Positions 2,474 through 15,790 of a DNA stretch of 22,375 bases are shown one piece after another. Source of the stretch: a virus; IMG/VR virus record IMGVR_UViG_3300024520_000526, positions 1 through 22,375 of that record. One strand, given 5' to 3'. Numbering within the stretch: the first letter of the stretch is position 1; the number at the start of each line of letters is the position of its first letter. The notes under the pieces are model-generated. The model had not been told where the DNA came from. It made no database searches and saw only the letters and a list, made by a program, of their open reading frames with translations. The position numbers and the translations under genes were made by a program.

Positions 2474-5400
2474 ATGGAAACTACTGCAACTTTATTTGAT
2501 GATGTAGTTGAAACTTCTCCCTCTTTACAAAGTGAAAGTACTGCAACTTTATTTGATGATGTAGTTAAAACTTCTCCTTCTTCTTTACAAGATGAAACTA
2601 CTGCAACTTTATTTGATAGTCCTAATCTTGGAATAGATCCTAACTCAACAGCTAATAAGTGGGACATAGCTACTGATCAAGCTGGTGAGATGTTTTATGA
2701 TGGTGTTGCTTTGCTTGCAGCTAAAGTAGGAGCAGATGATATTGCTACTAACTTTCGTAAAACATCTGATGAGTATAAACAAAGTGCTGCATCTAAACCT
2801 CAACCAGAAATAAGTATGTCTATTACTGAGGAAGCTCCTAAGATTTATGATAAGTTTTCTGAGGGTGAAATACTAGAAGCTATTACAGATACAGCAGACT
2901 TTGTACATTCTGTTCTTGTAGGTGTAGCTCCTTCTATGTTAGCCACTGGTGCTGCTGTAGGTGCTGCTGCTGTAGCTAAACCTGTGATGTTAGGTATAGG
3001 TGCAGGAGCTATAGCTAGTAACTTAACCGCAGCAGTTATAGGTATGACACCTAGTATGCTTATGTCTTCTGGTCAAGTATATGAAGATGCTTTAAAGTAT
3101 GGAGCTTCAGAAGAAGAAGCAGAGAACATAGGTATAGGTGCAGGTAGTGTTGTAGGTGCATTAGATAGATTAGGATTCACAGCTTTACTTAGTGGTCTTA
3201 CTGGTAAGTTAGGTAAGGAAACAACTATCAAAGCTATTAAAGAACAGACTGACCTATCTGAAAGCATGATAAGAGAAGCTGTTAATAAAGCTGTTAAGCA
3301 AGGTGGTCGTGGTATAAAAATAGAAGGGGCTACTGAAGCAGCACAGACTATCGTAGAAGAAACTTCTCCAGCTTTAGTCTCTGAGAAAGAAGTAGAACTA
3401 GCTAACCTTGTACCTAAAGTTATAGATTCATTTGCTGCTGGTGGTATAGGTGGTGGATTTGTAGGTGCTATGACAGGTGCTATCTCAGTACCTGTAGCTC
3501 GACAAGCTATTAAACAAGCTGAAGAACAAGACTTAGAGTCAGAAAGATTACAAAGAGATGCTAAAGAACAAGGTGAACTATTTAGTTTTGAAGAAGACTT
3601 AGGTACTATAGATACTGATCTTGATCCTAAAGTAAAATCAACAGTAGATAAGAAACCTAGAGATCCTAAAGAACCAGAATTAGATTTAGGTCTTACAGAA
3701 GAAGCTGCTCCTGAAACTGGTACGCTTGATCTTGATGAAGAATCTATACTAAGAAAACAAGAAGAAGATAGGATAGAAGAAGCACGAAGAGAGATAGAAA
3801 GAGATGCAAGTCTTGTTGATCCTACGTTAAATGAAGGAGCTAGAGAAAGACCTTCTGATGCTACTCAACGTCAATTAGATGAAATAAAAATTTTAGAAGA
3901 TAGAGAAAGTATTAAGGGTACTATTATAGCTAATCCTAAAGTAAGGGCTTTAGAAAAAGACAGAAGAAAATTAGAGAACGAAGTTATTAAATTAAAAAAT
4001 CAAGGTGCTTTAGATACTGACCAATCTGTAGAAGTAAAACAAAAAGAGATAGATAGTCTTACTAAATTAATAGATAGCACTAGTAGAAAGAAACTTACAA
4101 AAGAACGATCAAAGCTTAAAGGTTCTAAATTAACTGATAAGAATTTACAAAAGTTAGTTGAAGAAAGAAGTACTTTAGAAAGTCAAAATAAATTACTTGA
4201 AGAAAAGAAAAGATTAAACAATAAGGATAAAAAGTATAAGGCTGAAAGAAAAGATGGGGATAAAAATAAAAAATTTCCTAAGAGAGATAGATCAAGATTA
4301 AATAAACTTAGGAAACAATTAAAAGGTTCTACTCTTATAAATAATAATAAAAGATTAAATACTATTAAAAATAAATTAAAAAAAGATATAGAGTTAAATC
4401 GAATAGATTTTTTAATAAAACAAGTAAATGAAGAAAAAGTTACATTTACAAAAAAAGATGAAGCTAGATTAACTGAACTTAAAGGTGGGTTAAAAACTAG
4501 AGAAGATGTAAAAAATCTTAGGGCATTATTTAAAGATGTAGTATCTCGTTCTACTACAAAGTTAAGAGAACTTTCTAAGACAGTTCCTATTGCAGGTCAA
4601 ATGATTAATGAGCTTATGAATATAGAGTTTAATAACAATCAAGGTATAGGTAAATTTGCTAGTACAAAAGAATTAATTAACGATAAGCTACGTAAAGCTT
4701 ATAAGTTACCTTTTCAAAGTACTATCTCTATGAATTTAAAAAATCAAGTAACCGATCAACTTAATGGTTATAAAGAAGCTATTGATCCTAGAGCAAGACA
4801 AGTTGCAATAGAAATAAAACAAGAAATATATGATAAGATTTATTATATATTAAGAGCATCAGGTATAGAGATGGGAAAAATAGAAGACTACCTTCCTATT
4901 ATTTATAAATTTAGATTAAAAGGATTAGGTAGAAGTAAAGATATAGCTAAGTTTAAAAAGATACTAAAAAAGAATGAGGCATTATTAGCTGAGAAAGGAT
5001 TAGATTCTACTGAAATAATAGAAAATATTATTACAAATGATGGTGTTTATATTCCTGATCCTAAGTTAGATATTTTTAATACTAAGGAAGATACCGATCC
5101 TAAAGCTGTGCGTAGAGGTTTTGAAAAAGAAAGATCTATACCTAGAGAAGTTGTACAACAACTATCTGATGCTGGTTTAGTTGAAAAAGATTTTGATAAA
5201 GTTACTAATAAATATATAGTTGATAGTATTAGAAGAGCTAACTTAAATAGATTTGTAACTAAATACAAACCTGTTATTAATGAGTTATATCAAAGAGGAC
5301 TCATGACCGAATCAGAAGGAAAACGTATTAAAAATATTGTAGATGCTCTTCAATCTAGATATAGAACTATAGATAACTTAGGACTTAGATCTTTATTTCG

Positions 5401-8789: not shown

Positions 8790-9468
8790 CTTGTTCCTCC
8801 TGTCGTAGTTGAATTATTCTTGGGTTATTGTCTATCTTAAATCCTTCAAGGCTGATTGCTTTATGATTAGCATTCATAACATCAAAGAATAAATAGATAG
8901 ATAAATTTTTATAGTTTCTAATCTTATCTAAGAAAAAGTTTAACCACACATTAGGTTCAAAGACTGAGACATGTACGTTAGTACCATCTTCAAATGTTTT
9001 CATTGCAGGGTAGCAAGCTATATTAAAGAAGGCCATCTTGTTAGACCTCTCTAATATCTCATCTACCACCCATCCTAGATCAGTCTCAGGCACATGTTCT
9101 AGTACGTCAGTACATATTACTGCATCATACTCGTCACTACTAAGTACGTTATACTCAGCAAGAGCAGGTTCATAACGATCAATTTTATCTAGCTCCCAAT
9201 ATTCTGTTAGTGGTTTATCTATCACGTTGGTTAGTCTTTGATAGTCTTCAGTATATAGAGTACCTTTACCTGCTCCATAGTCTAGTAAACTTTTACATTT
9301 ATTAGACTTAAGAAAGCCATCAATAATATAGATAAACTTTGTTAAACTCTTACCATCAAACATACCTTTAGCTGAAGAATGCATTGCAATGTATTGGTCA
9401 AGTAACTCTGTGTACTTAGCTGATGGTCTGTCTCTACTTAACTCTGGATCATATTGTATATCAAGCAT
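8773..9468 (-). CDS. SAM-dependent class I methyltransferase
   Basis: The start chosen is the ATG of MLDIQYDPEL, with AAGGA seven bases upstream; a TTG five codons earlier opens the same frame but has less support. Motif I of the Rossmann fold is LLDYGAGKGT (residues 61-70). The acidic strand-2 end is ELDKID (about 92-97). The VICTDVLEHVPE segment is the motif typical of Methyltransf_11/23 enzymes acting on small molecules or glycans. It overlaps the preceding fusion gene by eight bases, and the glycosyltransferases beside it suggest the substrate is a sugar or surface glycan. No DNA-methylase motif (DPPY/NPPY) is seen, so DNA modification is unlikely. Confidence 0.8.
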   Translation of the reverse strand: MLDIQYDPELSRDRPSAKYTELLDQYIAMHSSAKGMFDGKSLTKFIYIIDGFLKSNKCKSLLDYGAGKGTLYTEDYQRLTNVIDKPLTEYWELDKIDRYEPALAEYNVLSSDEYDAVICTDVLEHVPETDLGWVVDEILERSNKMAFFNIACYPAMKTFEDGTNVHVSVFEPNVWLNFFLDKIRNYKNLSIYLFFDVMNANHKAISLEGFKIDNNPRIIQLRQEEQDDRNT

Positions 9469-11833
9469 CGTAGTATCCTTCAAACTCTGGTCTTGTTTTC
9501 TTTTTCTGTTGTATCTCCCATAGGTCAGCTACCATTGTATCTTTTCCATGAAAGCTTAGTACACCCTCAAGACCTTCATCTTGAAAGACTTTCTCACAGT
9601 CCTGTGCCATAGCTAGTAGCTCACCAGTAGTCCAGTACTTCTTCTCATCAACACTTACTTCAATGTACTTAGGCTTTGGTACTTCACCACCTTCTATATC
9701 ACCTGTAGTCTCAGTAAGTTCTTCCTTACTAGGCTCATCTCTGCAAGAATCAAAACCAAAGAGGTCTATGTTTCTAAAGCCCATTGTATGTAGTATACCT
9801 ATGCCCCTCATAGCAGCACACGTACCACCAGTAATCATAGTAGCACCTTTAGGTATGCCTAGATCATCAGGTACTTTGACTTGTTGATTCTGTATCTGAG
9901 TACCTTGCTCACTCTCTTCTCTAAGAGAATCAGTAAAGGCATGCCATCCCCATATCTTACATTCTTTAGCTATGAAGAAGTTAGTTACAGAAGGATCAGT
10001 CATAGAAGCAACAAAGAAATTAGTATCAGGATCTAAGTTCTTGAAGAGATCCTTACGTACTACGTTGTGAGTAGACACTCCTGTAATAGGTCGAGGATCT
10101 AGTATGATACAACCCCAAGGCTTGATGCCATTGGCAATCAGGTGAGGGTAAGCATGTTTAACTGTTAGTAACTTAGCATCTGGGTTGTCCTTAATGAACA
10201 TCTTCAATGCACCATAGTCTAAGTAAGGGCCAGCAGAAACAAGTATAGCTTTCTGTTGGTGTGCCATATGCTTAGTCACCCACTTCTTAGGATCAATCAG
10301 TGTCATGTTAGACTTAATGTTGTTCTTGATGTAGTCTTTAGGAACACAGTCTCTAGGATGCACAACAATAGGTACACTCTTTAACTGATTAGGTATATCT
10401 TCTACAGTTGGACCGTGAAGAAAAACCACAAGGTGAGTATGACCACCTCCAGCCACCTTGTCTTGGGAAGGGAGAAGATGCTTACGTGTCGTAGACTTCT
10501 CATCAAAGCTTGTCCAGCCATCTTTCGTTGTCTCTTTCTGATCAACCTTCTTTGTCTTGACGCTATCAAAAACATGTTTCACTCCATGATATTTTTCAGG
10601 AGGCATAGACTCATCTTCTTCTGATTCTTTAGTGAAGTAATGATCACCTATAACTACAGGTACGTCCTTAAGTATTTCGTACTCTGTCTGGACTGTCTCA
10701 ATACTATTACCACTACCAATCAAAGCAAAGTCTACATCTTTTATATCCTTCTTTAATAATGTTTCTCTTACATTACCTTTAGTTAATTGAAAGGTAAACT
10801 CTTTATTCTCTTTCTCTTTAACATGCTCAGAGAACTCTATTAGTCTTTTATGTACAGCTTCTAAAGTATTATGAGGCTTTACATTAAACTCTTCGTGATC
10901 TGTCTCTGTAGTTGCATCCTCAAAGAGATCATAACCTATGTAATGTACTTCATCTGTCTTCTGAAATGCAGCAAGTGCCATCTCAATAGCTCTACCACCA
11001 TTCCAAGTACCTGTCTCAAGTATAGTCTTAGGTTTATAATACCTTACTAGATCAGCTAACTGCTTGTATCTACTAGGTAATATGTCTTGAGTAGTCTCTG
11101 TCTCAGACAGCTTGAAGATACGTTTACCATCCTTATCTCTCATGGCAAAGTTCTCACGATCATACATGTTGACAAGTATGTCACCTATAATAGACTTCTT
11201 AGGATCAACCTCTAATGTATTCATACCATGAGCATTATAGATAAGCTTAAGTCTATCAAAGATAAATGTATCATGCCACTCACGGTAGTTGAGAAACTCA
11301 CCTGATATGAAGGCACCTCTAAGATCACCAAGTAAACGCACTGGTGTTTCTCTGTCAAGATTAAATCCTACAATCTGTGTCATGTCTGTAAAGGTTACAA
11401 GGTCCAGTTTATCTGAGTGTTCAGGAAATATAGTATCAATATCTTTTTGATATACATTCTTGATGTTCATACAACTAGGATCAAGCCAGAATAACCAACC
11501 ATTAGTACTATCAAAGGCACACTCTGTTAGTGCAATTACTTTAGGAATATACTTGAGTGGATTTAAGATATCATTGTACTGTATCTTACCCCCTTCAGTA
11601 CCATTGTGTTGAGCAAAGGTCTTGAGAAAGTCTGGATAGTCTGATATCTCCATTAGGTTATGATAGAATATATTCTTAGCTTTAGGTAAGGAATAGTTAG
11701 CAAGGTCAAGGTTATAGTAATAACAATGAAACTCTATGCTAGGCTCCCAGTTATCTTTAAATTCATTTAAGAGATGAAACGTACTATGCTGTAGTGATGT
11801 TTCATCAAAGGCTGTTACAATTTTATAGCTCAT
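9461..11833 (-). CDS. Three-domain fusion: glycosyltransferase-like, SAM-methyltransferase-like, DUF115/MptE-like
   Basis: A 790-aa protein with three visible parts. Residues 1-235 look like a glycosyltransferase or glycan-processing domain (VTAFDETS start, WLFWLDPS at 113-120 where a DxD-type metal site would be, and REWHDTFIFD). Residues 255-400 resemble a class I methyltransferase with ILETGTWNGG as motif I (271-280), IGYDLFED as the motif II strand and DVPVVIGDHYF near the end. Residues 525-700 resemble the DUF115 (MAF/MptE-like) domain: AILVSAGPYLD, the GCIILDPRP strand, ITGGTCAAMRGIGI and DLFGFDSC. DUF115 proteins are linked to flagellin glycosylation and pterin pyrophosphate transfer. 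The gene overlaps its neighbours by 11 and 8 bases. I infer that it builds or alters a surface glycan; the substrate is unknown. Confidence 0.7.
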   Translation of the reverse strand: MSYKIVTAFDETSLQHSTFHLLNEFKDNWEPSIEFHCYYYNLDLANYSLPKAKNIFYHNLMEISDYPDFLKTFAQHNGTEGGKIQYNDILNPLKYIPKVIALTECAFDSTNGWLFWLDPSCMNIKNVYQKDIDTIFPEHSDKLDLVTFTDMTQIVGFNLDRETPVRLLGDLRGAFISGEFLNYREWHDTFIFDRLKLIYNAHGMNTLEVDPKKSIIGDILVNMYDRENFAMRDKDGKRIFKLSETETTQDILPSRYKQLADLVRYYKPKTILETGTWNGGRAIEMALAAFQKTDEVHYIGYDLFEDATTETDHEEFNVKPHNTLEAVHKRLIEFSEHVKEKENKEFTFQLTKGNVRETLLKKDIKDVDFALIGSGNSIETVQTEYEILKDVPVVIGDHYFTKESEEDESMPPEKYHGVKHVFDSVKTKKVDQKETTKDGWTSFDEKSTTRKHLLPSQDKVAGGGHTHLVVFLHGPTVEDIPNQLKSVPIVVHPRDCVPKDYIKNNIKSNMTLIDPKKWVTKHMAHQQKAILVSAGPYLDYGALKMFIKDNPDAKLLTVKHAYPHLIANGIKPWGCIILDPRPITGVSTHNVVRKDLFKNLDPDTNFFVASMTDPSVTNFFIAKECKIWGWHAFTDSLREESEQGTQIQNQQVKVPDDLGIPKGATMITGGTCAAMRGIGILHTMGFRNIDLFGFDSCRDEPSKEELTETTGDIEGGEVPKPKYIEVSVDEKKYWTTGELLAMAQDCEKVFQDEGLEGVLSFHGKDTMVADLWEIQQKKKTRPEFEGYYDA

Positions 11834-12599
11834 CTATTTTTCCATGTAATGTTAAATAAGAATAGTCACTGTTCCACTCACTAGCCATAAGACCATCTAC
11901 TTCACGTTGGCATTCCCACTTAGGAAACCAAGGACCACCTGTTGTAAAGTGTACTAACTTAGGATCAATAGAAGGATCAGAATGACTGTCAAGCCAGTTC
12001 CATTCTTCTGATATTGTACCCATAGCTGAGTTCTTATTAGGTAACCAACCAAATGTATGTAGATAGTTACCTGTCTTATTGTTGACAGCAAAGGGTGTGA
12101 GTTGTTTGTTTAACTCATGACCACAGTTCCACAACATAAGACTAGACCAGTTCTTTCTATTGTATCTAGTCTGTTCTCTACCATCCATTTTAAACTTAGC
12201 AGTTGGTTCATACTCATGCTTAACACAGTACAAAGGATAGAACTCATCGTTGTATTCTTCAAACAATTCATTGATGTCTGTTCTAGGATACATATCGCAA
12301 TCTAAATACAACGCCCATCCTTCATACTGCATCAAAGCAGGTACTAGAAAACGAGTAAAAGTAAACTCACTTGAGAAAGGCTTCTGATCTATGGAGTCAA
12401 TCATTTGATTGTTCACCCACTCGAAAGGTCTGTTAAACATATTCATATGTTCCAAGATATCTTTACGTAGAAACTTAACTATAATATCCTTTGGTGAGTT
12501 AGCTTCTATTAAGTATTTTAACATCTGGGCTGCAACCTTTTCTTTAGGATCATATCCTATAAAAACTGTGTTCACCTTTTTCTCTTTACTAATAGCCAT
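11823..12599 (-). CDS. Glycosyltransferase (GT-A fold, GT8-like)
   Basis: 258 aa. The N-terminus VNTVFIGYDPKEKVAAQMLK is the nucleotide-sugar-binding strand and turn. FTFTRFLVPALMQYEGWALY leads to the metal-binding DxD at LDCDMY (about residues 96-101). LVHFTTGGPWFPKW near the C-terminus matches the HxxGxxKPW-like end of GT8 enzymes, in altered form. It has no membrane helix, so it acts in the cytoplasm on a nucleotide sugar. AGGA lies eight bases before the ATG. The position before the fusion protein and a methyltransferase suggests a shared glycan pathway. The sugar donor cannot be read from the sequence. Confidence 0.8.
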   Translation of the reverse strand: MAISKEKKVNTVFIGYDPKEKVAAQMLKYLIEANSPKDIIVKFLRKDILEHMNMFNRPFEWVNNQMIDSIDQKPFSSEFTFTRFLVPALMQYEGWALYLDCDMYPRTDINELFEEYNDEFYPLYCVKHEYEPTAKFKMDGREQTRYNRKNWSSLMLWNCGHELNKQLTPFAVNNKTGNYLHTFGWLPNKNSAMGTISEEWNWLDSHSDPSIDPKLVHFTTGGPWFPKWECQREVDGLMASEWNSDYSYLTLHGKIDEL

Positions 12600-12610
12600 T
12601 AGTATATCCT

Positions 12611-13057
12611 TTATTTAAGTTCTATCTGTCTAGGTTTTTTATGATCAGGAATGTTTTGTTCTAGATCAATAGTAAGTAACCCATTATTTACACTAGCATC
12701 ATTCACCTCTATGTTATCAGCAAGGTGAAAGATTTTTTTAAAACTTCTGTTAGCAATCCCACGATATAGAATCTTACCATTACTCTCAGTTTCTTTTCCA
12801 TCATAAGAGATGGTGAGGTTCTGCTCCTCAAGAGTAACGTCTAAGTCTTCTTTAGAAATACCAGCAACAGCAAGTGTAATAGTATACTTACCATCTTCGT
12901 ATTCTATTAAATTATGTGGGGGATAATTAGGTTTATTGTTTATTAAGTTATTAGGTTGATTTAACACTGTATTAAATATTTTATCATATCCTATAACCCA
13001 ATCTCTAAAGTCTTGTAGTTGTACTCTAGACGATAGATGTTTATCTACATAGTTCAT
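12611..13057 (-). CDS. Small heat-shock protein Hsp20 (IbpA class)
   Basis: An ATP-independent holdase that binds unfolding proteins. The alpha-crystallin domain spans about residues 48-135: YTITLAVAGISKEDL, LTISYDG, RGIANRSFKKIFHL and NGLLTIDLE. These last two stretches and the IPDHKKPRQIEL end are the IbpA/HspA class A pattern of proteobacteria. The start is the ATG of MNYVDKHLSS, with AAGGAG seven bases before it. A GTG 13 codons upstream in frame lies inside the leader and is rejected. The full length of 148 aa is normal for the class. The gene has its own promoter and a structured leader, unlike most genes here. It is followed closely by the glycosyltransferase. Confidence 0.93.
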   Translation of the reverse strand: MNYVDKHLSSRVQLQDFRDWVIGYDKIFNTVLNQPNNLINNKPNYPPHNLIEYEDGKYTITLAVAGISKEDLDVTLEEQNLTISYDGKETESNGKILYRGIANRSFKKIFHLADNIEVNDASVNNGLLTIDLEQNIPDHKKPRQIELK

Positions 13058-13063
13058 AATGTT

Positions 13064-13081
13064 TCTCCTTAATAAGCAAGA
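13064..13081 (-). promoter_or_regulatory. ROSE-like RNA thermometer hairpin over the Hsp20 ribosome site
   Basis: Read on the - strand: TCTTGCTTATTAAGGAGA. TCTT pairs with GGAGA's GAGA (one U-G wobble), CTT pairs with AAG, the G between TCTT and CTT is unpaired (or opposes a G), and the loop is ATT. The whole AAGGAG Shine-Dalgarno site is inside the stem. ROSE elements of proteobacterial small heat-shock genes carry U(U/C)GCU opposite AGGA with that same bulged or G-G-paired G, which makes the stem melt on heating. The gene downstream is an Hsp20. The pairing is seen; thermometer function is inferred. Confidence 0.65.
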
Positions 13082-13082
13082 T

Positions 13083-13112
13083 TGTATGGAACCCACACTG
13101 GCATTCCATACA
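13083..13112 (-). promoter_or_regulatory. Perfect 9-bp inverted repeat at the Hsp20 transcription start
   Basis: TGTATGGAA and TTCCATACA flank 12 bases, which hold a further CCA/TGG pairing around a GTG loop. The left arm covers the predicted start point (about 13108), so it could be a DNA operator. If transcription starts a little upstream it would form the first stem of a two-stem leader, the layout of known ROSE leaders. Even a start at 13109 leaves six of the nine pairs. Confidence 0.7.
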
Positions 13113-13114
13113 TT

Positions 13115-13143
13115 ATTATACTACACTTTTTATATCTTGGCAA
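13115..13143 (-). promoter_or_regulatory. Sigma70-type promoter for Hsp20
   Basis: The -35 box is TTGCCA (13143-13138), the spacer is 17 bp, and the -10 box is a perfect TATAAT (13120-13115). The start is expected near 13108, giving a leader of about 50 bases. It lies in the gap between the nrdJ stop and the Hsp20 ATG. Confidence 0.8.
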
Positions 13144-13150
13144 GCTTTTT

Positions 13151-14842
13151 TTAATCACACTCTTTCTGACCTGTCGTTGGATCTATGTAACAAGCTTCTG
13201 CTTTAGGCTCATCCTTAACTTCATTGAGGATACCATAGCGTTTACCACTAGCCCTGAAGGTGGTGATGCCCTTGCATCCCTGCTTCCAAGCATTGTAGTA
13301 TAACTCTTTGAACTCTTCGTAAGTTACATTGTCACCTACGTTACAGGTCTTAGAGACAGCACTGTCAATATACTTAGATGTTAAAGCAAGGACTGAGAGA
13401 TGTTCTTCAGCACTAATCTCATTGGCAGTTCTACCATTCACGCCATGTCTATAAGCATAGTCTTCTACACGTTGTATCTGATGACCATCAAACTCTTGTA
13501 TGGTTCTATCATAAAACAAACTAAATGGTGGTTCAATACCAGAGCTTACGTTGTCAGCAGTCAAACTTATTGTACCAGTAGGTGCTATGGAAGTTAGGTG
13601 AGAGTTGCGTAGTCCATTCTCTTTGATCTGATCTTGTACCCAATTAGATAATGTCTTAAAGAACTTACCTTCGATGTACTTATCTTTATCGTACAATGGA
13701 AAGCAACCTTTCTCTTTAGCTAGTAAAGCACTTGCACCATAGGTGTGATCTCGTAATGTCTTAAGAACTTTAGTAGTAAACTTCATGAACTCTTCTGAAG
13801 CATAAGGCATACCACACATCTCACCTGCATTAGCCAGACCAGTAACACCTAGTCCCATCCTACGTTTGTTCTTAGCTTCTTTCTCCTGCTCTTCCAGAGG
13901 ATAGATAGTCCTATCAATAACATTATCCATAGCTCTGACTACATGATGGATGTCACCAGTGAACAGACCATAATCAAATGCACCTGCTCCAACATACTTA
14001 GTAAGATTAAAGCTACCAAGAAGACAAGCACCATAAGGAGGTAGAGGTTGTTCACCACAAGGGTTAGTAGCTTCTATGTTCTCACAGTAGTATAGGTTAT
14101 TCATCTTGTTAATGGTATCTATGAACAACACTCCCGGCTCTGCCCAATCCCATGTGCTACGCATGATCATATCCCATAGGGCTACAGGGTCTACCTCTTC
14201 GTGTACTCTACCTTCAAACTGTAGAGGAAATGGTTCTTTCTTTTCAAGACATCTCATGAACTCATCTGTGATACCAACAGAGATATTAAAACCAGTAAGA
14301 GAAGTACCATCATTCTTAGCTGTGATAAACTGTTCAATGTCAGGATGATCAACACGTAAGACACCCATCTGTGCGCCTCTACGATGTCCACTAGATGCTA
14401 TGGTCTGACATACAGCATCAAAGATCTGCATGAAGCTGACTGCACCAGATGCTCTAGAGTCTAGAGACTTGATACGATCACCTCTGGGACGTAGCCTACT
14501 GAAGTCATAGCCTATACCACCACCTCTACGCATTGTCTCAGCAGCATCAGTAGCTCTACCCATAATAGAATCCATACTATCTTCTATAGCACCACTGACA
14601 AAGCAGTTGTAAGCAGTAGTCTGCCTTGCTGCTCCCATAGCATTCTGTACCCTACCAGCAGGTAAGAACCTCATGTGCCTGAGTGCATCCTTGAAGTTCT
14701 CAAAGTGATCAGGTGTATCCTTTAAGGCTTCTGCAATACGTACAACCTTACTATAAAAATCTTCTCCTGTTTGCCTATACTTAACATTGTCTATCTCTTC
14801 TGAGATGGGTAGTGTCATACCATAGTGTACTTCGTTTTCCAT
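13151..14842 (-). CDS. nrdJ: Class II (adenosylcobalamin-dependent) ribonucleoside reductase
   Basis: Reduces ribonucleotides to deoxyribonucleotides using a cobalamin-generated thiyl radical. Visible: active-site pair C80 (YNCFVSG) and C273 (YGACLLGS), radical Cys C262 with N260 and E264 in NPCGEQPLPP, the APTGTISLTADNVSSGIEP phosphate-binding loop, and GCKGITTFRASGKRYGIL near the end. The tail has two Cys (EACYIDPTTGQKECD) that could pass electrons from thioredoxin. The C80/C262/C273 spacing matches class II rather than class I, and no NrdB-like small subunit gene is near. At 563 aa it is a compact form without an ATP cone. GAAAGGGA precedes the ATG. It supplies dNTPs for the phage polymerase and implies a host that makes or imports B12. 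Confidence 0.92.
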   Translation of the reverse strand: MENEVHYGMTLPISEEIDNVKYRQTGEDFYSKVVRIAEALKDTPDHFENFKDALRHMRFLPAGRVQNAMGAARQTTAYNCFVSGAIEDSMDSIMGRATDAAETMRRGGGIGYDFSRLRPRGDRIKSLDSRASGAVSFMQIFDAVCQTIASSGHRRGAQMGVLRVDHPDIEQFITAKNDGTSLTGFNISVGITDEFMRCLEKKEPFPLQFEGRVHEEVDPVALWDMIMRSTWDWAEPGVLFIDTINKMNNLYYCENIEATNPCGEQPLPPYGACLLGSFNLTKYVGAGAFDYGLFTGDIHHVVRAMDNVIDRTIYPLEEQEKEAKNKRRMGLGVTGLANAGEMCGMPYASEEFMKFTTKVLKTLRDHTYGASALLAKEKGCFPLYDKDKYIEGKFFKTLSNWVQDQIKENGLRNSHLTSIAPTGTISLTADNVSSGIEPPFSLFYDRTIQEFDGHQIQRVEDYAYRHGVNGRTANEISAEEHLSVLALTSKYIDSAVSKTCNVGDNVTYEEFKELYYNAWKQGCKGITTFRASGKRYGILNEVKDEPKAEACYIDPTTGQKECD

Positions 14843-14855
14843 TTATGTTCCCTTT

Positions 14856-15092
14856 CTATTTATATTCTAAGGCTAGTATTAGTTGTGCGTAGTGTATTAC
14901 TTTTTCAATATCTTTTTTACCTTGACCTTTAGTACGATGTCGAGTTATATATTTTATCACATTACCCTCGAAGTAGTCAAGCTTATTCGCATGTATATAT
15001 TCAACAGGCTGTATGCCACAATCTTTATAGTGATCACCACCTACTTGTACCTTAAGTGCTTCAGAGGAGTGATTGAAATTTTCTTCTGACAT
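14856..15092 (-). CDS. DUF3310 protein (SaV-like, 78 aa)
   Basis: The core VGGDHYKDCGIQPVEYIHAN, the EGNVIKYITRH segment and the closing DIEKVIHYAQLIL helix are the DUF3310 signature, a small phage family sometimes labelled 'nucleotide kinase' on weak grounds. AGGAG lies nine bases before the ATG. It overlaps the gene upstream by 32 bases and lies 13 bases before nrdJ, which fits a nucleotide-metabolism link without proving one. Confidence 0.85.
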   Translation of the reverse strand: MSEENFNHSSEALKVQVGGDHYKDCGIQPVEYIHANKLDYFEGNVIKYITRHRTKGQGKKDIEKVIHYAQLILALEYK

Positions 15093-15402
15093 TTAAAATA
15101 TCTCCTGAGTTAATAACATTAGACGCAAAGTTTCTAACAGCAGTAGGCTTAACACCAGCATAAGTACATACTGTTTCAAAGTCTTCACACGTAACACCTT
15201 CTGTTTTAAATATCCAAGCATGGGCTTGATCTCTATATACTTGAACAGAAGTTTTTTCTTTGTCATACTTAGGTTTAGTTAAGTCTAGTAATGCTTGTAG
15301 TATAACACCAACGTATAAAGATCTATGAGAATCTTTACCTGTTATTTCATATAAAGATCCCATAGATACATCAGTGCTTAGTTCGTAAGGACTATCAGTC
15401 AT
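15061..15402 (-). CDS. Conserved-looking phage protein of unknown function (113 aa)
   Basis: The start chosen is the ATG of MTDSPYELSTDV, which overlaps the stop of the gene upstream by eight bases; a GTG 13 codons earlier lies deep inside that gene. A central helix (SLYVGVILQALLDL) is followed by VYRDQAHAWIFKTEGV, then CEDFETVCTYAGVKPTAVRN. That last stretch (DFE-x-VC-x-x-AG-x-x-P-x-x-VR) reads like a small helix-turn-helix and, from memory, recurs in small phage proteins; I know no function for it. It could bind DNA, given the replication-gene context. Confidence 0.75.
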   Translation of the reverse strand: MTDSPYELSTDVSMGSLYEITGKDSHRSLYVGVILQALLDLTKPKYDKEKTSVQVYRDQAHAWIFKTEGVTCEDFETVCTYAGVKPTAVRNFASNVINSGDILNVRRKFQSLL

Positions 15403-15790
15403 TATCAAAATACTCTTCAACTGGCCTATAGAACTTACCACCTACAAAACTATTATAGAAGGCAGGTTCATCAGACCCTTCTAAGGTAGCACATAAAACA
15501 TTGTACTTCATTTGATAGTAACACTCATAGTATCGTAAGCTTCGTTTGTTTTTAAACTCAGCTATAATATTAAACTTAAAGTTATCTTTACCTAACTTCT
15601 TTATGTCTTCTATTAAATGTTTGGAAGATCCCATGTAAGATTTCCAATTTGATTCACGTTTCTTTTTACCTTTAGAATAATTAAAATATTGTTTACAACC
15701 TATGTAAGCTTTCTCTGTTTTGATATTGGTTATCCAGTATACAAAACCAAACTTAGTTAGGTCAGGTTTCTTATCATATTCCCAATGCAT
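15395..15790 (-). CDS. GIY-YIG-like endonuclease (131 aa)
   Basis: FGFVYWITN (residues 14-22) and KAYIGCKQ (27-34) fit the two GIY-YIG strands, in altered form (V-Y and Y-I-G). The later segment RYYECYYQMKYNVL fits the helix with the metal-binding Glu and the following Asn. The rest is Lys-rich, as for a DNA-binding nuclease. The ATG is in a TAATG overlap with the Cas4-like nuclease gene. It could be a structure-specific nuclease in phage recombination or host DNA breakdown, or a free-standing homing-type nuclease. Family call moderate, role unknown. Confidence 0.65.
   Translation of the reverse strand: MHWEYDKKPDLTKFGFVYWITNIKTEKAYIGCKQYFNYSKGKKKRESNWKSYMGSSKHLIEDIKKLGKDNFKFNIIAEFKNKRSLRYYECYYQMKYNVLCATLEGSDEPAFYNSFVGGKFYRPVEEYFDND

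Follow-up and report, generated by a model that had tools for sequence, protein, structure and literature searches.

ROSE-like RNA thermometers are defined by a U(U/C)GCU motif that pairs imperfectly with the Shine-Dalgarno (SD) sequence in the 3′ hairpin of a leader (PMC11342760). The closest described system is the Pseudomonas ibpA leader, a short, experimentally proven ROSE element whose second hairpin melts while hairpin I stays folded (two hairpins in all; Krajewski et al., 2013, PMC3669281). Known phage RNA thermometers include lambda cIII, SPbeta blyA (a fourU element), and a thermometer predicted for a Caudoviricetes sigma-70 gene (PMC10586365, PMC11182007). These share with the element described here that they are temperature-responsive, or predicted, RNA elements in phages; they differ from it in being single cases with unrelated motifs and genes rather than a covarying family. 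We found no paper describing the phage Hsp20 leader element in a search of the open-access literature.

Architecture of the Hsp20 Leader

The stretch of DNA analyzed here, referred to as the window, comprises 22,375 bases of an IMG/VR virus record, from a marine virus that infects bacteria, and has a G+C content of 36%. Its DNA polymerase is nearest to those of the Pelagibacter podoviruses HTVC103P/104P/115P (∼45% identity), and further genes encode a primase-helicase, a Cas4-like exonuclease, ribonucleotide reductase, and an ejection protein. The ribonucleotide reductase gene is followed by a minus-strand gene (12611–13057) for a class A (IbpA-type) small heat-shock protein (sHSP) of 148 aa. 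The product contains an alpha-crystallin domain (Pfam HSP20, PF00011, 63.6 bits; phrog_432) and aligns with an A-G doublet (A65 G66), which is a criterion for class A sHSPs (PMC3827213). The residue after the doublet is isoleucine rather than an aromatic, the latter being a typical and not a strict mark of the class, and F or Y occupies this position in more distant phage homologs.

The earlier note had described a consensus promoter, a stem at the transcription start, and a hairpin at 13064–13081 that hides the AAGGAG site while leaving one G unpaired; checked base by base, every pair stood. All features lie on the minus strand. The −35 hexamer TTGCCA (13138–13143), kept in most close relatives, and the −10 hexamer TATAAT (13115–13120), kept in relatives, are separated by a 17-nt spacer and form a sigma-70-like promoter. 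This promoter agrees with the consensus at 11 of 12 positions and is the top promoter-like site within 11500–15000. Hairpin I (13083–13112) occupies the predicted 5′ end of the transcript and comprises 12 pairs with a UGCC/GGG core and a bulged G at 13102. Its folding energy of −13.5 kcal/mol at 37°C was equalled in 1 of 200 shuffles.

Hairpin II (13064–13081) is of ROSE type, UCUUGCUU/AAGGAGA closed by an AUU triloop, and masks the ribosome-binding site. The outer part of the helix is formed by U13081-A13064, C13080-G13065, U13079-A13066, and the wobble pair U13078·G13067; the inner part, beyond the unpaired G13077, is formed by C13076-G13068, U13075-A13069, and U13074-A13070. The SD sequence AAGGAG (13065–13070), 7 nt upstream of the ATG start codon (13057–13055), is thereby paired in its entirety (13070–13065) with CUUGCUU. 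The leader thus has the parts of a ROSE-like element: UUGCU set against AAGGAG in the 3′ hairpin, a bulged G of that motif (G13077) facing G13067/G13068 of the SD, and two hairpins, both covarying, in a class of 5′ leaders that has two to four. Hairpin I mirrors the geometry of hairpin II, with a U·G pair, a bulged G, and C-G pairs (UGCC/GGG), and across phages this core is near-invariant; duplication of a sensor motif, or a tertiary contact, may account for it.

With the Pseudomonas ibpA thermometer (PMC3669281) the phage element shares its place in the 5′ leader of a class A sHSP gene, a stable hairpin I, and the pairing of U(U/C)GCU with the SD in the second of two hairpins. In contrast, the phage element is AT-rich, lies in a phage genome behind a sigma-70-like or T4-late-like promoter rather than a sigma-32 promoter, lacks G-C clamps on both flanks of hairpin II, and is also found before dnaK and groESL.

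Folded by itself, the window leader is not significantly stable (z-score −1.49 over 85 nt), and neither is hairpin II alone (−0.70), whereas hairpin I alone is (−3.06). Single-sequence folding was rejected as proof of the element on account of the leader z-score, and it is conservation and covariation in relatives, rather than the fold of the window alone, that raise the element above chance. At gathering threshold, Rfam gave no match across the window. The Rfam ROSE models, proposed in the earlier note as a check, returned a full-length alignment to ROSE_3 (RF02523; 29.3 bits, E = 1.6e-4 for 201 nt), though one below the gathering score of 43 and hence outside this family. The ROSE_3 consensus also has a GAUGCC..GGGUC hairpin I. 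Phage leaders score below the gathering thresholds of ROSE_3, ROSE (RF00435), and ROSE_2 (RF01832), and a search of 13 diverse phage Hsp20 loci for ROSE gave no match at E = 0.5. Salmonella ibpA and a Sinorhizobium leader pass. Salmonella, Campylobacter, and E. coli records that came up in the Hsp20 search of the phage collection are probably bacterial contamination, and one was used, solely as an Rfam positive control. We read the phage element as a ROSE-like thermometer type that Rfam does not cover, and the covariance model built here supplies one where Rfam has a gap.

A Conserved, Covarying Element Linked to Chaperone Genes

Phage loci were gathered by Hsp20 protein similarity alone, blind to their leaders, and 66 leaders less than 80% identical were kept; many of the contigs are metagenomic fragments. 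The U(U/C)GCU..AGGA core, scored as [CU][UC]GCU..AGGA, occurs in 59 of these 66 leaders and in 3 of 161 other SD-bearing leaders from the same contigs, compared with 0.145 per set in shuffles. One of the three controls with the core (L091) is a genuine element before dnaK. Hairpin I as defined is present in 58/66 and 0/161, respectively. A larger non-redundant set has the unpaired G and hairpin II in all 114 of its phage Hsp20 leaders, about two fifths of which were found via the DNA pattern itself, so that this set is biased for presence of the motif. In cultured phages, the element was recognized by reading in 17 of 17 checked (HTVC115P, HTVC103P, HTVC008M, S-TIM5, ACG-2014f, and twelve more).

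Blind scans of viral contigs lead to the same gene. With the DNA pattern, 59 of the 80 matches listed directly precede Hsp20, and about 7 more are truncated or operon-linked; with hairpin II alone, 65 of the 80 listed do so. One match (L197) precedes an Hsp20 with a longer N terminus, and in another (L218) a 70-aa open reading frame (ORF) lies between leader and Hsp20. Most other non-Hsp20 matches were set aside as chance-like, without a sensible start. Similar-looking small ORFs of 70–90 aa stand directly behind the element in L380, L442, L443, and L218; their products belong to no convincing Pfam family, and the label “phasin-like” is an impression only.

In the leaders of related phages, a comparison that the earlier note had called for, the U(U/C)GCU/AGGAG pairing and the unpaired G are kept while the stems covary. 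In hairpin I, the first four pairs outside UGCC/GGG are paired in 96 of 96 phage leaders, compared with about 45% in shuffled ones, and U-A, A-U, G-C, and C-G are all common among the outer pairs. In hairpin II, pair −4, next to the core, is U-A in 38, C-G in 22, and A-U in 8 leaders of the 114-leader set. It is paired 71 times against 46.8 in shuffles (maximum 58), a count that calls for an independent alignment check, since the anchors favor paired placements. A MAFFT alignment of 45 leaders contains 106 two-sided changes compared with 35.3 when shuffled (0 of 500 as high), and sliding the partners lowers the number to 19–31. Compensated changes extend into the SD helix itself, as in S-TIM5 (CCAC-G-CUU/AAGGUGG), S-RSM4 (GUC-G-CUU/AAGGAC), L054 (UCUU-G-CC/GGGAGA), and L082 (UCUC-G-CA/UGGAGA).

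Other Chaperone Genes and Bacterial Relatives

DnaK and Hsp20 are known in large aquatic phages from work in which RNA thermometers are not mentioned (PMC12619734). We find that phage dnaK also bears the element, in L091 and many other contigs, often beside an hsp20 gene with a second copy. In L320 (2432–5789), dnaK, hsp20, clpS (ClpS), and a heme-oxygenase-like gene lie in a row, with elements at 2432–2503 before dnaK and at 4385–4446 before hsp20. The canonical core is present in 44 of 55 non-redundant phage dnaK leaders; the other 11, as judged by eye, read UCUUACUU/AAGGAG, with an A at the position of the bulged G (L331, L343, L344, L349, L354, L361, L364, L366, L367, L371, and L375). The pairing on both flanks of this A is retained, and these leaders provide a natural variant for asking whether the G itself matters. 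A two-hairpin element also precedes a phage groES-groEL operon (L433:1325–3294), which is the sole phage groES with the element among the matches listed, and we make no general claim for GroES relatives. Where the start of an alphaproteobacterial dnaK gene could be read (20 leaders), one leader matched the loose core and none had the two-hairpin element. The earlier note, which had tied the element to Hsp20, was right in this and understated its breadth: the element belongs to phage Hsp20 genes at large and extends to phage DnaK and one GroESL operon.

Of 80 bacterial class A sHSP loci, 48 are matched (E up to 0.1) by a covariance model built solely from phage Hsp20 leaders. The best bacterial match (3e-14) is in marine alphaproteobacteria and has the same two-hairpin form, and SAR86 matches are weaker. 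In each of two marine alphaproteobacterial genomes with strong matches, the match is single. The phage leader is thus homologous to bacterial ROSE leaders or, at the least, of the same type. Enterobacterial ibpA is not recognized by the model, which indicates that the phage and gamma-type elements are distant.

Marine alphaproteobacterial Hsp20 leaders L107, L130, and L508 likewise have two hairpins and score 55–60 bits with the phage-trained model, and differ from the phage leaders in lying on a bacterial chromosome; they may be phage derived. L107, L130, L118, and similar loci are marine alphaproteobacterial chromosomal Hsp20 genes with a phage-type leader. In a protein tree, the window Hsp20 falls in a phage-only clade (support 100), and the L107 protein, from its chromosomal context, nests inside the phage Hsp20s (support 97). 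Transfer of gene and switch from phage to bacterium is possible on this one quick tree.

The promoter in front of the element is variable. In 99 leaders, the box just before hairpin I is T4-late-like in 29 and sigma-70-like in 25, compared with 1.4% and 0.8% of random positions, respectively. This variation suggests that the leader stays with its gene while the promoter is exchanged, and leader and class A sHSP gene have probably moved together. That gene and switch were captured as a unit, as first proposed from the window sequence, gains support from this and from the bacterial class A sHSP leaders matched by the phage-trained model. The pair would most likely have been acquired jointly from a bacterium, and within aquatic phages the leader would have spread to dnaK and, once, to groES-groEL.

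We lean toward the view that aquatic tailed phages have a chaperone regulon of their own, consisting of hsp20, dnaK, occasionally groESL, and small ORFs, each gene with a ROSE-type switch. Within phage genomes the switch would have passed from class A sHSP genes to further chaperone genes and come to lie behind phage promoters, so that an infected cell would be supplied with chaperone in step with heat or an excess load of protein. The hairpin precedes almost all of the related phage chaperone genes examined, phage dnaK among them, which points to a modest heat- or protein-stress response of their own in many aquatic phages. Where a handful of phage RNA thermometers had been reported, there is now a family that occurs in many phages of marine and fresh waters.

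Probable Thermosensing and Alternative Readings

Taking these data together, and by homology with the proven short ROSE elements of Pseudomonas ibpA, we consider it likely that the two hairpins of the Hsp20 leader form a short ROSE-like thermosensor acting on translation. Transcription from a phage promoter of the host sigma-70 type would begin at hairpin I, which would stay folded and probably shields and insulates the leader. In hairpin II, pairing of the SD with CUUGCUU around one unpaired G would form a weak helix that blocks ribosomes in the cold. Rising temperature would loosen this helix, such that chaperone is made as host proteins begin to unfold. The sequences show the structure, its conservation and covariation, and its link to chaperone genes; that the leader opens as an infected cell warms, and that the phage gains from this, is inferred.

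Computed in isolation, hairpin II of the window weakens from −5.5 kcal/mol at 5°C to −3.4 at 20°C and a very weak −1.4 at 37°C, as would suit a switch tuned to cool water. Computed exposure of the window SD rises only from 0.13 to 0.36 between 5°C and 42°C in a nearest-neighbor model that omits the G·G and triple contacts of ROSE elements. Family-wide computed melting curves are flat and, since the ensembles underlying them mix alternative pairings, uninformative, whereas the calculation is suggestive for the window. Because G·G and triple contacts are left out, we regard the melting calculation as weak evidence either way. No measurement of temperature-dependent translation of such a phage leader was found in the open-access literature. 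What a phage would gain from sensing heat is not obvious in an environment as thermally stable as the sea.

The protein itself offers another route to control. In E. coli, IbpA acts on the 5′ UTR of its own mRNA to repress translation, for which R93, the cationic residues 97/98, and the aromatic residue 34 are needed (PMC10474464). Read by hand on the alignment, and assigned by pattern rather than structure, the equivalents in the window protein are R104 (R93), K107/K108 (R97/K98), and Y45 (Y34). In the phage Hsp20 set, R stands at the R93 position in 176 of 204 proteins and an aromatic residue at the Y34 position in 206 of 206, while position 98 is often S/T/Q and not K/R, and such residues are perhaps conserved for chaperone function alone. 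We hold it possible, rather than probable, that phage Hsp20 binds the leader of its own gene, perhaps also that of dnaK or of host ibpA, and represses translation. Misfolded protein would titrate Hsp20 off during infection and release translation, with temperature acting mainly by unfolding clients. Control by aggregated protein is equally compatible with the evidence as control by heat, and aggregation sensing and direct melting may coexist.

A fixed translational brake or timing device, in which the hairpin sets initiation on a strong phage transcript at all temperatures, would sit well with the shallow computed melting, and the structure of the leader is what tunes expression of many phage genes. 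We nevertheless think this unlikely. A plain brake needs neither a G kept in 114/114 leaders nor a constant U(U/C)GCU geometry, the element is almost confined to chaperone genes, and bacterial relatives of like architecture are proven thermometers (PMC3669281). It is barely credible that the stem is a by-product of the conserved promoter, the SD, and close-relative identity with no regulatory role. The window leader, taken singly, does not fold significantly, and its closest relatives are almost identical in sequence, but this reading is already contradicted by compensatory changes, which occur in both stems among deeply diverged phages and even inside the SD.

The thermosensor reading bears on a standing question. 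Hsp20 is a core gene of cyanobacterial myoviruses, for which a role in capsid scaffolding has been suggested (PMC3037559). A conserved, covarying translational switch before it, of a type shown in bacteria to sense heat, makes the question of why ocean phages carry a heat-shock gene testable at the bench. It also leads one to expect that warming or proteotoxic load would affect infection by very abundant phages.

Elsewhere in the window, a 790-aa protein with an MptE-like (DUF115-type) domain (9461–11833) adjoins glycosyltransferase-like and methyltransferase-like genes, and this region with its flanking genes is a possible sugar-modification cassette. A GIY-YIG endonuclease of the SegE type (15395–15790) lies amid replication genes and is probably a homing endonuclease.
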